DNA of 64,000 nucleotides from Lota lota (taxonomy: Eukaryota > Chordata > Actinopteri > Gadiformes > Lotidae), in contig JACYXH010000475.1 of NCBI GenBank assembly GCA_026745465.1, positions 17,501 through 81,500 of the forward strand, read 5' to 3'. A program made the position numbers and the translations under genes. Below, in pieces: positions 22,150-25,235 of the stretch. Within the stretch, counting starts at the first letter, position 1; each line of letters begins with the position of its first letter. The notes beneath the pieces were generated by a model, which saw only the letters and a program-made list of their open reading frames with translations, was not told the DNA's origin and made no database searches.

Positions 22150-22151
22150 AT

Positions 22152-22236
22152 ATTCTTGGTCCAGGGTTTTGAAAGGAATGTCATTGAGCCCCACTCATGC
22201 TTTGCTGACCAAGGTTGGTCAGACAATGACTCAAAC
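22152..22236 (-). pseudogene. decayed third copy of H/ACA-like RNA
   Basis: This stretch aligns with the 3' half of the H/ACA-like elements at 23,579-23,708 and 26,369-26,498. The outer CTTGG/CCAAG stem is retained. The ACA box has become ATA and the 5' hairpin with its GCACTG/CAGTGC closure is lost. It lies downstream of the rps8-like terminal exon, the same relative position as the copy beside functional rps8. Confidence 0.45.
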
Positions 22237-22361
22237 CGAAAATAATCGTGAACAATTTAGGCTGGTTATGTAGCATGAGTATAATTTCACAGTGAAGCAA
22301 CAATGGCAACTGCATTACTTGTTCAATATGAAAGACAAAAAATGTTGTGGGAAGTTTGGAT

Positions 22362-22367
22362 TTTATT
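22362..22367 (-). terminator. poly(A) signal of the rps8-like copy
   Basis: AATAAA on the minus strand inside a block nearly identical to the rps8 3' end at 26,590-26,612. Its retention supports 3' processing of the decayed copy. Confidence 0.5.
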
Positions 22368-22613
22368 TGACTTAATATGCTGTTCTCAGCATCAATTTCC
22401 TCAGGTAGATCTCAAGCTCTTCATGCTTGACTGTACCCTGCTGGGCCGTTGCAGTTCTTTCAGCGCTAAGAAATGTTCAGTCGTTCAAGTTCAGAATGTC
22501 TTCATCTGGAGTCTGCAGGAGATGGACAAAAACTGTGTGAGCTACTGAAACCAAACACTTAACAATGACTACCCATAGCATGTTCTAGTGCCCTAAAACT
22601 GTTTTAATGATTA

Positions 22614-22672
22614 TCCTTCCTCAGAGTCACAAACATCACCATTCAGTAGCAGAACTCTTCACTGAAAGGCCA
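22614..22672 (-). pseudogene. damaged SNORD38-like copy
   Basis: The copy keeps the GGCC terminal stem, box D CTGA (22,621-22,624), box D' CTGA and part of the guide (AGTTCTGCTACTGA). Compared with the rps8 intron-4 snoRNA it has lost about a dozen bases around box C and the start of the guide, so it is probably inactive. Confidence 0.6.
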
Positions 22673-22975
22673 TGTTTAGAGGTGGGCGCCAACCACAAAC
22701 ACTACAACAGATTTTTGGATAAATAAAATCATGTTAATATCCTTACCAGCTTCTTGCATCCAGTAGGGGTGGCACACTAAGCCTCATTTGACTGCATGAA
22801 AGAAGACTCAACCAGGACAACTCAGCTCTTCACCAGGGTCTTGGTTCTCACTAACTTCTTGCTGGAGGCATTGTAGACCACATGGCGTGTCCTTCATCTG
22901 GAGCCTGTAAACAGGCATCACAGCATTGTTAATCAGATGTACATGCAATTGTTAGGAAAATGTTTGCACATAATC

Positions 22976-23044
22976 TTTCTCAGAGTCACATTATCGTCAC
23001 TTGCATTCAGTAGCAGAACTGGACAAAGTTATCTTCATGGAAAG
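22976..23044 (-). ncRNA. snord38: SNORD38-like C/D snoRNA, duplicate copy
   Basis: Nearly identical to the rps8 intron-3 copy at 27,563-27,632. The D' guide TTTGTCCAGTTCTGCTACTGA-type block, the C'-like GTGACGA and terminal box D CTGA are all retained. Box C reads ATGAAGA instead of the consensus RTGATGA. SNORD38 is known to guide 2'-O-methylation of 28S rRNA. It lies between the rps8-like exon 3 and exon 4 remnants. Confidence 0.7.
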
Positions 23045-23271
23045 CAATGCAAATACTATATAAAAAAAAACATGTAGATGCAACAAAAAGTAAAATTATT
23101 AAATCTTACTTAAAAACTATCACCAATATCCAGGCTCAGGGACCTGCATTTCTTGTTTCCACAATGGACCCTCACCGTGTGGCTATGACAAGGTCCAATC
23201 TGTTAAAAAAGAAAGTCTGATTATAGTCCATGCAATTTACATCCACTTGCAGCACCAACATGTACTGCAGC

Positions 23272-23373
23272 GTGTCAGAGTAACTATGACAAGTCCTGGC
23301 ATTGGAAAGTTAAGATTTGAACCAAAACGGCCAAATTAAAACCTACCTAAGGTTAGGGTTTCATCACCCACGC
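23272..23373 (-). ncRNA. snord46: SNORD46-like C/D snoRNA, duplicate copy
   Basis: Box C GTGATGA (23,361-23,367) and box D CTGA (23,275-23,278) bracket about 95 nt. The guide CTTGTCATAGTTACT precedes box D and is complementary to the conserved 28S rRNA sequence containing GAGTAACTATGAC. Its order of motifs matches the copy in rps8 intron 2. The copy is in the intron between the exon-2 and exon-3 remnants of the decayed duplicate. Confidence 0.75.
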
Positions 23374-23406
23374 CATGAACAAACACATTCCCTGGGTTTT
23401 ACATAC

Positions 23407-23493
23407 CTTTGCCGGAGCACGCCTTTCATTTTCTTATGGTACGGCTTGCATTTACCAGTCTTCATGGGTTATGCCAGTTGTCCATAGAGATAC
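23407..23493 (-). pseudogene. rps8 exon-2-like remnant (copy 2)
   Basis: Similar to rps8 exon 2 but shortened to 87 bp from 107 and with an in-frame TGA about 11 codons in. The donor GTATGT and acceptor TAG are preserved, so it can still splice but not encode eS8. Confidence 0.75.
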
Positions 23494-23578
23494 CTAGACA
23501 CCAAGAGACATGACATTTTGCAATCATTAGTGTCATTTCACACATTTCCAAAATAAACATTTCCGATTCTTCAGATAC

Positions 23579-23708
23579 TTTTGTTCTTGGCCTTCGAAAG
23601 GGATAAGTCATTTTGTGACCCAGTCCTTCTGCAAACCAAGGTTGGTCTAGCACTGAGAATGTTTGGAGAGCCAATGAATGCGGCATACCAGTATAAGTGG
23701 ACAGTGCA
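23579..23708 (-). ncRNA. H/ACA-box snoRNA candidate, intronic copy
   Basis: A 130-nt element. Hairpin 1 is closed by GCACTG pairing with CAGTGC. An H box AGACCA (ANANNA) follows, then hairpin 2 closed by CTTGG with CCAAG and containing GTCA/TGAC, then ACA followed by three bases. The other full copy, at 26,369-26,498, is also 130 nt and keeps every one of these elements. It sits between the two rps8 exon-2-like remnants, an intron of the putative host transcript. I cannot name the family or its target. Confidence 0.6.
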
Positions 23709-23887
23709 GCAGCATTAATCAATCCAGCATATAATTGAAATAGATACAATAATAGTCATGACCACACAGTTACAGATTAGCATTGTTCAGAAACTATTTT
23801 AACCCCAACAGCCAAACAATCTTAGCTACAGTAGAGATCAATCGCCCGCACCATTACAAATTAAGGTCCATTCATAGTGATGCATAC

Positions 23888-23989
23888 CTATATGTTTGAT
23901 GGCAGGCGCTTGAGCTCATACTTCTCTTAGGGTAGGGTTTGCGTTCTACCGCCGTTCTTGCTGGGTTTATGCCAATTGTCCCGAGATAC
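23888..23989 (-). pseudogene. rps8 exon-2-like remnant (copy 1)
   Basis: Clearly homologous to rps8 exon 2 (102 versus 107 bp). A 2-nt deletion after the first codons shifts the frame and gives an early TAA in the eS8 frame. The acceptor CCACCAG and donor GTATGC are intact. Exons 3-6 of this copy are missing, and an H/ACA-like RNA follows directly in the intron. Confidence 0.75.
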
Positions 23990-24069
23990 CTGGTGGAGAT
24001 AAGTATACCAGTGGTTAATTGGGTGAGTAAACACAAATTGTTCAATTCAAATTGAATAATGAAACGCTT

Positions 24070-24144
24070 GAGCAAATCAGTTCTCCAAGGTAGTTATCCG
24101 CATTGTAATCTCAGATTCCGCAAAAGGTTATCATCATATTGCTC
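24070..24144 (-). ncRNA. snord55: SNORD55-like C/D snoRNA, duplicate copy
   Basis: This 75-nt element has a perfect GAGCAA/TTGCTC terminal stem, box C ATGATGA (24,131-24,137) and box D CTGA (24,077-24,080). The D guide ACCTTGGAGAA is identical to the rps8 intron-1 copy. It also has a consensus D' CTGA (24,111-24,114) where the rps8 copy has CCGA. The guide fits the 28S sequence TTCTCCAAGGT, with the fifth base upstream of box D facing a C. It is in the intron between the acadm-like and rps8-like exons. Confidence 0.7.
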
Positions 24145-24343
24145 AAACATTGTCAGACAGCATCCACGTTGCTAAACATGACCTAGCTTTCTACTAACAC
24201 CTAGCACCTGCCGCCCATATAAGTTCAACATTTACCTTTCAAAACACATTCGTGTTGCAATTGCACACTACATGTGTGAACCCTGCCAGTTCCTTTTGGT
24301 TAGAGTAACAACTAACGTCGACCTCGGAACAAATAGTACTTAC

Positions 24344-24444
24344 ACCCAGGGAGTGAGCCTCGACGGCGGTCTGGACTCCAGCGCAGCCATAGGCCAGCGC
24401 CTCAGTCATTAGGAAGGCAGCAAACGTAGACATTCCCGTTCCAC
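24344..24444 (-). pseudogene. isolated acadm exon-5-like copy
   Basis: This 101-bp exon matches acadm exon 5 (19,474-19,574) in length with no indels, and by my count differs at about 18 positions. It retains [15 protein letters not shown] residues, an open frame, a TAG acceptor and a GTAAGT donor. Intron sequence on both sides also resembles the acadm introns. No other acadm exon copies are evident nearby, so it cannot make a dehydrogenase. Joined to the next exon, its frame runs into SRDNWHK, read from rps8-derived sequence, before a stop. Confidence 0.75.
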
Positions 24445-25235
24445 CTAAACATGATTGGTAAAGGCATTAGTTAAATTTATAAAAACCTTCAATAAACAGG
24501 CTGTTTGCAAATTGCAATTTATTTGCATCCAGACACGTGCAAAGAGGGAAAATATCAAACCACCCTGTTCACGCAAATACTGAACAAACCGAATGTTGCG
24601 AACTATCTCATTAAGAATTGAAATCACAATTTCACTAGAGGGTATTTTCTGAAGAAACCACGCGGTTGCACTCCGGCCCCGTTAGCATGCGGACTATTAC
24701 AGGCAGACACGTGTCCGGCTATTAGGCTAGCATGCTAATGTGCCAACACGTGCTAGTAACACAGTTCGCATGCTGTCCGGAGATGGGTTATTTGCCCCAC
24801 TTAAGTTCGCTTTTTCGGTAGTTCTTTAGGCAACACCACTGGACCCACCGAGACTTGGCACGTGGATTGACCCTGTCGCTTCCATCTTTATTACGGAGCG
24901 TGAATACAATATCGTCCCAACTTCACATCAGTTAACCTAAACTCCGAAAATAGAGGCTCAGTAACGCCAATACAACACATCTTCGTAAACCCATACCCAA
25001 ACATAAGAGATGAGTGTAATGTTAGAAGTTACCGTTATTCCTTGACTGAGAAGCTATTAAACGCCAAATAAAGTGATGAAGGTAATATGGTACACATTAA
25101 CATCGCCATTTATCTTACCGTCGTCCTTTTTACGAGGAATGGCTCCGATGTCTGCTTTCTGGTTGTTCTGGCAGTGGAAGCAGTTATTACCAATGTATAG
25201 TCACTATCTACCAGCCTATTTGATCATAGCGAAGT

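Follow-up and report, generated by a model that had tools for sequence, protein, structure and literature searches.

Non-coding hosts of the GAS5/SNHG kind have several introns with one small nucleolar RNA (snoRNA) each, neutral exons and no coding role, and according to PMC11405852 nearly all of the exon sequence of SNHGs evolves neutrally. Here we compare these systems with a locus in a 64-kb stretch of the genome of Lota lota (contig JACYXH010000475.1, positions 17,501 to 81,500), which we call the window and whose coordinates are used throughout. Between 25.2 and 22.15 kb, the window contains a mosaic of broken pieces of the ribosomal protein gene rps8 and of an acyl-CoA dehydrogenase gene, which we take to be acadm. 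This mosaic is probably a chimera that acts, like GAS5, as a non-coding host and is kept for its intronic snoRNAs. Like the GAS5/SNHG hosts it distributes its snoRNAs one to an intron, with four intact snoRNAs and one damaged one in five introns. Unlike theirs, its exons can still be identified as broken pieces of rps8 and acadm, and they lie beside their parents.

The nearest evolutionary precedent that we found is U17, which is intronic in Xenopus rpS8 and in mammals lies within a host without a protein, U17HG (PMC7601244, in the portion available). The snoRNAs concerned are different, and that portion describes no intermediate for U17, whereas the exons of the mosaic can still be read. Protein-coding genes have also left fossils in the form of long non-coding RNAs (lncRNAs), which, like the proposed RNA of the mosaic, derive from a former coding gene; however, as set out in the available part of the source, the genes concerned code in reference species and lost that role in mammals, whereas the mosaic is a duplicate beside an intact parent (PMC5577775). 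The text of PMC5577775 contains no occurrence of snoRNA. In the accessible portion of PMC2653536, chicken RPS8 has U39/U55, U46 and U38 in introns 1, 2-3 and 4-5, and this order is the one found in the intact rps8 of the window. The mosaic differs from intact vertebrate RPS8 in that it cannot code for S8 and in having an H/ACA RNA in an intron, such an RNA being absent from the introns of the rps8 beside it. A keyword-based survey of titles and abstract starts in the open-access literature returned no ribosomal-protein duplicate turned non-coding snoRNA host, which is weak evidence of absence.

Anatomy of the mosaic

Using self-comparison, alignments and searches of the 575-Mb assembly that contains the window, we resolved the mosaic into the following features, given from 5' to 3' with the evidence for each in brackets. 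The intact rps8 lies upstream and acadm downstream, and rps8, the H/ACA RNAs, the mosaic and acadm are all on the minus strand.

25119..25235, minus strand, candidate first exon with donor GTAAGA (sequence)
24344..24444, minus strand, acadm exon relic, exon 5 by our count (Pfam match to the acyl-CoA dehydrogenase N-terminal domain)
24069..24145, minus strand, SNORD55-like RNA, copy A (alignment)
23888..23989, minus strand, rps8 exon 2, copy A, frameshifted (alignment)
23579..23709, minus strand, SNORA35-like H/ACA RNA within a copy intron (Rfam, 41.6 bits)
23407..23493, minus strand, rps8 exon 2, copy B (alignment)
23269..23374, minus strand, SNORD46, copy B (Rfam, 64.8 bits)
23110..23199, minus strand, rps8 exon 3, copy B (alignment)
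22976..23043, minus strand, SNORD38a, copy B (Rfam, 64.7 bits)
22747..22904, minus strand, rps8 exon 4, copy B, with stops and insertions or deletions (indels) (alignment; tblastn, 57% identity, 3 stops)
22619..22666, minus strand, damaged SNORD38 (SNORD38b) in the fifth snoRNA intron (alignment)
22345..22512, minus strand, fused rps8 exons 5-6 with AATAAA (alignment)
22150..22240, minus strand, decayed third SNORA35-like copy, 3' of the AATAAA (alignment)

The initial annotation had read this stretch as one rps8 duplicate. Two copies of exon 2, the acadm exon relic and the lack of exon 1 rule this out, and the 5' end is not that of rps8; self-comparison and alignment detected neither rps8 exon 1 nor the rps8 promoter in the mosaic. 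Its 5' half runs from the candidate start stretch through the acadm relic, a fused intron, exon 2 copy A and the H/ACA RNA, and its 3' half from exon 2 copy B through exons 3, 4 and fused 5-6 to the AATAAA and the decayed H/ACA copy, after which acadm follows. The fused intron, between the acadm relic and exon 2 copy A, contains the end of rps8 intron 1 together with SNORD55, while introns 2-4 of copy B carry SNORD46, SNORD38 and the damaged SNORD38. The acadm relic differs from positions 19,574-19,474 at 18 of 101 bases (11 of 74 nonsynonymous and 7 of 25 synonymous sites), with no indels and no stops. Rfam did not recognise the decayed third SNORA35-like copy as SNORA35, even with E values up to 1 allowed.

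The rps8 coding exons had been described as broken, and frameshifts, stops and deletions are indeed present in the exons of the mosaic. The introns are retained except for intron 1, kept in part, and intron 5. Our reading is that exons 5 and 6 were joined by a deletion that would have removed intron 5 and both its splice sites, in a region that aligns poorly. Disabled coding exons with introns kept are the mark of an unprocessed pseudogene, and an alternative is that the mosaic consists of dead tandem pseudogenes whose snoRNAs have not yet decayed.

Divergence of the snoRNAs and of freed coding sites

Divergence was measured throughout in a two-sequence comparison of parent and copy. Changes to amino acids are opposed by selection in rps8 and unopposed in a dead copy; because selection opposes them in rps8 only, nonsynonymous differences gauge the free divergence of the copy, and a snoRNA of the copy under no more constraint would be expected to show a similar level of difference. 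Three stretches that were poorly aligned or had no counterpart do not enter the counts: exon 6 with the 3' part of exon 5, the intron surrounding the H/ACA RNA, and intron 3 on its donor side. The counts assign the H/ACA RNA to copy A, which is an assumption.

The mosaic copies differ from rps8 at 67 of 380 nonsynonymous sites (17.6%) and at 29 of 107 synonymous sites (about 27%). The corrected ratio of the two is about 0.60. A copy that never was under coding constraint, set against a constrained parent, should give about 0.5, and the nearness of the two values disfavours a recently dead coding paralogue. The five snoRNAs, with the damaged one included, differ at only 36 of 429 positions (8.4%), significantly fewer than the 67 of 380 nonsynonymous sites (Fisher p = 6e-5). 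The contrast was similar across three gap penalties (p from 3e-5 to 1e-4), without the damaged SNORD38 (35/381, p = 4e-4) and in copy B (20/221 versus 57/300, p = 0.001). These results show the pattern of neutral exons and constrained snoRNAs in the parent/copy comparison, as had been proposed for maintained introns and relaxed exons, and they stand for the pooled snoRNAs. A dead pseudogene would have no part constrained, whereas here the snoRNAs and the splice sites are more conserved than the freed coding sites.

Chance is a poor account of this pattern: when five blocks with the lengths of the snoRNAs were placed at random on the parent/copy alignment 20,000 times, no placement was as conserved as the snoRNAs themselves. 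When the snoRNA mask was shifted along the concatenated alignment, 2 of 1,497 shifts (of 1 and 2 columns) equalled its conservation, and none of the 1,419 shifts of at least 40 columns did; by themselves, shifts and placements do not separate constraint on the parent from constraint on the copy. Within SNORD55, SNORD46 and SNORD38a, the stems, boxes and guides differ at 5 of 109 positions against 18 of 141 outside them (p = 0.02), in a test with hand-marked C/D elements that leaves aside SNORD38b and the H/ACA RNA.

The positions given for the five snoRNAs in the initial annotation all stood, and each snoRNA does lie in its own intron. The copies of SNORD46 (64.8 bits), SNORD38 (64.7) and the SNORA35-like RNA (41.6) exceed the Rfam gathering scores. 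The motifs and the stem hold in SNORD55 and SNORD46, and in part only in SNORD38a. Copy SNORD55 has 4 differences from its parent in 77 positions, none of them in the terminal stem, C box, guide or D box as marked by hand. The copy of the H/ACA RNA has 12 differences in 131 without a gap and folds into two hairpins like the parent, and SNORD38a has 2 in 68. The damaged SNORD38, as described, lies in the fifth intron (22,666-22,619), where the C-box region is deleted; the remainder has 1 substitution in 48 positions and gave a weak sR14 match only.

The four junctions named previously (24,344/23,989, 23,888/23,493, 23,407/23,199 and 23,110/22,904) are exact GT/AG pairs, and a fifth junction is predicted at 22,747/22,512. 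Every undeleted splice site is kept, nine of nine derived from rps8 and two of two from acadm; at free divergence, such retention would have a probability of about 3% over 18 letters or 1.4% over 22 letters. The distance from a C/D RNA to the splice acceptor, which matters for the assembly of small nucleolar ribonucleoproteins (snoRNPs), is 79, 69, 71 and 106 nt in the copy versus 73, 68, 71 and 105 nt in rps8, and it was held while a donor-side segment was shortened by 74 nt.

Several observations weigh against a maintained host, and some of them are those expected of dead tandem pseudogenes. One SNORD38 is damaged, both splice sites of intron 5 have been lost by deletion, and the SNORA35-like copy beyond the AATAAA has decayed. 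The copy SNORD55-like RNA scores 29.6 bits, under the Rfam cut-off of 35, although the one in intact rps8 (33.7) is also under it. The boxes had been reported as kept, but the C box of SNORD38a is UGAAGA, off consensus, as is the UGAGGA of its parent. Neither copy A alone (snoRNAs 16/208 versus nonsynonymous sites 10/80, p = 0.15) nor SNORD46 alone (17/105, p = 0.43) can be distinguished from coding sites. The intron adjoining the copy A snoRNAs is just moderately changed (26/161), and the indel contrast is weak at two of the three gap penalties (p = 0.05, 0.07 and 0.002). The candidate first exon had no second copy in the genome search, which identified no source for it. Finally, the snoRNAs of the mosaic may be redundant because each kind is also found in or beside intact rps8. 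On the other hand, with divergence of about 18% at nonsynonymous and 27% at synonymous sites, the pooled snoRNAs are only about half as changed, the undeleted splice sites are all present, and the damage to SNORD38b looks recent, given the single substitution in its remainder. The initial annotation had offered as its alternative a pseudogene too young to have lost its snoRNAs, and this fits poorly and is weakened because there are 15-25 exon indel events, depending on the gap penalty, together with the synonymous divergence of about 27%. We therefore regard death of both copies, with snoRNAs still to decay, as possible and as the less probable explanation.

Parent and copy are close neighbours, and gene conversion from rps8 might have homogenised the snoRNA segments without selection. 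However, the conserved stretches match the bounds of the snoRNAs, where conversion tracts would be expected to span adjoining exon and intron, and the copy SNORD46 both differs from its supposed donor and outscores it against Rfam. We consider this explanation highly improbable.

Coding potential and polyadenylation signal

The predicted spliced RNA of the mosaic is 823 nt long, and its longest open reading frame (ORF), of 57 aa, is reached by 34% of 1,000 shuffles. A coding chimera was ruled out accordingly, there being no ORF beyond chance, and the predicted RNA would probably be unstable. The AATAAA reported for the copy is present; the region of the signal matches the parent at 28 of 30 bases, which by itself is not significant (0.08).

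The intact rps8 and its snoRNAs

The intact rps8 and the snoRNAs in and beside it have the following positions.

28933..28936, minus strand, intact rps8 exon 1, ATG G (reading of the spliced coding sequence)
28186-28080, 27871-27772, 27492-27317, 27060-26931 and 26742-26633, minus strand, intact rps8 exons 2-6 (reading of the spliced coding sequence)
28260..28336, minus strand, SNORD55-like RNA in rps8 intron 1 (Rfam RF00157, 33.7 bits, cut-off 35)
27940..28044, minus strand, SNORD46 in rps8 intron 2 (53.5 bits)
27564..27631, minus strand, SNORD38 in rps8 intron 3 (66.2 bits)
27166..27234, minus strand, SNORD38 in rps8 intron 4 (64.4 bits)
26369..26499, minus strand, SNORA35-like H/ACA RNA 3' of the intact rps8 polyadenylation signal (47.2 bits)

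The six exons of rps8 run from 28,936 to 26,633, and the spliced coding sequence gives 208 aa without an inner stop. The product is ribosomal protein S8 (Pfam Ribosomal_S8e, 191 bits; S8 chains of the 40S subunit in PDB, best E 7.7e-131). Searching the whole genome with this protein gave six matches, five of them exons of intact rps8 and the sixth exon 4 of the mosaic copy, and a single intact rps8 was found. Its introns 1-4 hold the four C/D snoRNAs listed, in agreement with the known role of RPS8 as a snoRNA host. The genes, introns and snoRNAs of the window look typical of a vertebrate. The H/ACA RNA had been described as intronic; this is true of the mosaic, but the parental one lies about 100 bases 3' of the rps8 polyadenylation signal, outside any recognised intron. 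Downstream of the mosaic, acadm was recognised from about 21.0 kb by its Pfam N-terminal and middle domains, and its exons were read to 18 kb.

In genome-wide snoRNA searches, which score best candidates only, SNORD46 was found twice, the copy scoring 11 bits above the one in rps8 (64.8 versus 53.5). Three SNORD38 exceed the cut-off (66.2, 64.7 and 64.4), one of them within the mosaic, as do two SNORA35-like H/ACA RNAs (47.2 beside rps8 and 41.6 in the mosaic). Perhaps a handover is under way in which most SNORD46 now comes from the mosaic, which also houses the H/ACA RNA in an intron; we put this forward tentatively, and with more doubt than conviction, because of the higher score of the copy SNORD46 and the position of the parental H/ACA RNA outside introns. 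We do not claim that the parental SNORD46 is broken: its stem pairs poorly in the model, yet folding gives a bulged stem.

A weaker, 78% relative of the SNORA35-like RNA is present on another contig, at G000:C802:3019690-3019816, and keeps the H and ACA boxes by our reading. Rfam did not recognise it as SNORA35 at E values up to 0.5, and the surrounding 9.9 kb has no Pfam match in six frames. SNORD58 gave four matches within 2.4 kb at G000:C416:3879708-3882078. Neither of two snoRNA patterns, one of 20 and one of 25 bases, was matched exactly in collections of viral and prokaryote sequences.

Candidate promoter

A motif scan upstream of the candidate first exon gave one cluster.

25235..25331, minus strand, promoter-like cluster with CCAAT (NF-Y) motifs starting at 25,331 and 25,304, TATA at 25,268 and initiator TCACTTC (A = 25,235) (motif scan)

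This is the sole TATA in the window, on either strand, with at least two NF-Y sites within 150 bases, where shuffles gave 0.01 per strand, in a comparison whose motif set was picked after the site was known. In a further 77,512 strand-bases no cluster of TATA with at least two NF-Y sites was found. The cluster is suggestive of a start for a mosaic transcript. The classic hosts gas5 and U17HG are 5' terminal oligopyrimidine (5' TOP) genes, whereas the candidate start of the mosaic is TATA/CCAAT-like; the TCACTTC after the TATA, itself a predicted start, has no C followed by a pyrimidine tract.

The snoRNA copies could also be produced by read-through from the upstream rps8 promoter, presumably a strong one, and not from a promoter of their own. 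Both genes are on the same strand, about 1.4 kb separates the rps8 polyadenylation signal from the candidate start, and the parental H/ACA RNA in between would gain a transcript too. Against this, the AATAAA of rps8 is intact and the CCAAT/CCAAT/TATA/initiator cluster stands at the mosaic, so that we hold read-through to be unlikely. The interspersed repeat between rps8 and the mosaic (25391-25676, about 285 bp), which ends about 60 bases upstream of the cluster and recurs in the genome at least 39 more times with 68-83% identity, is neutral on this question.

Other features of the window

On the minus strand at 46700-48169, where the GC content is locally high, there is an open frame of 490 aa that contains leucine-rich repeats (Pfam LRR_8). 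Large minisatellite arrays are found at 59600-60188 and 61844-62197.

Proposed origin and significance

For the chimeric host that we favour, we infer the order of events, the transcription, splicing and snoRNP assembly, and the benefit as follows. The block of rps8, H/ACA RNA and acadm would have been duplicated in tandem, and through recombination and deletion two partial copies of rps8 would then have become joined, via the fused intron with SNORD55, to an acadm exon. The product no longer encodes a protein. A capped transcript would start near 25,235, its splicing would release five snoRNA-bearing introns, and polyadenylation would take place near 22,345 at the inherited AATAAA. The excised introns would be debranched and trimmed to the assembled snoRNPs of SNORD55, the H/ACA RNA, SNORD46 and SNORD38; these would be what the locus is kept for, and the spliced exons would be a by-product.

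GAS5-like non-coding snoRNA hosts have exons so little conserved that the origin of these hosts is difficult to follow. A host with exons that are still readable as broken rps8 and acadm, beside the parents, would display one route directly, by duplication, loss of the coding role and retention of introns. If the handover is true, a ribosomal-protein gene and its snoRNA cargo would be splitting into a protein gene and an adjoining non-coding host. Such a host would also allow the decay of exons to be measured against the retention of snoRNAs in sister species.

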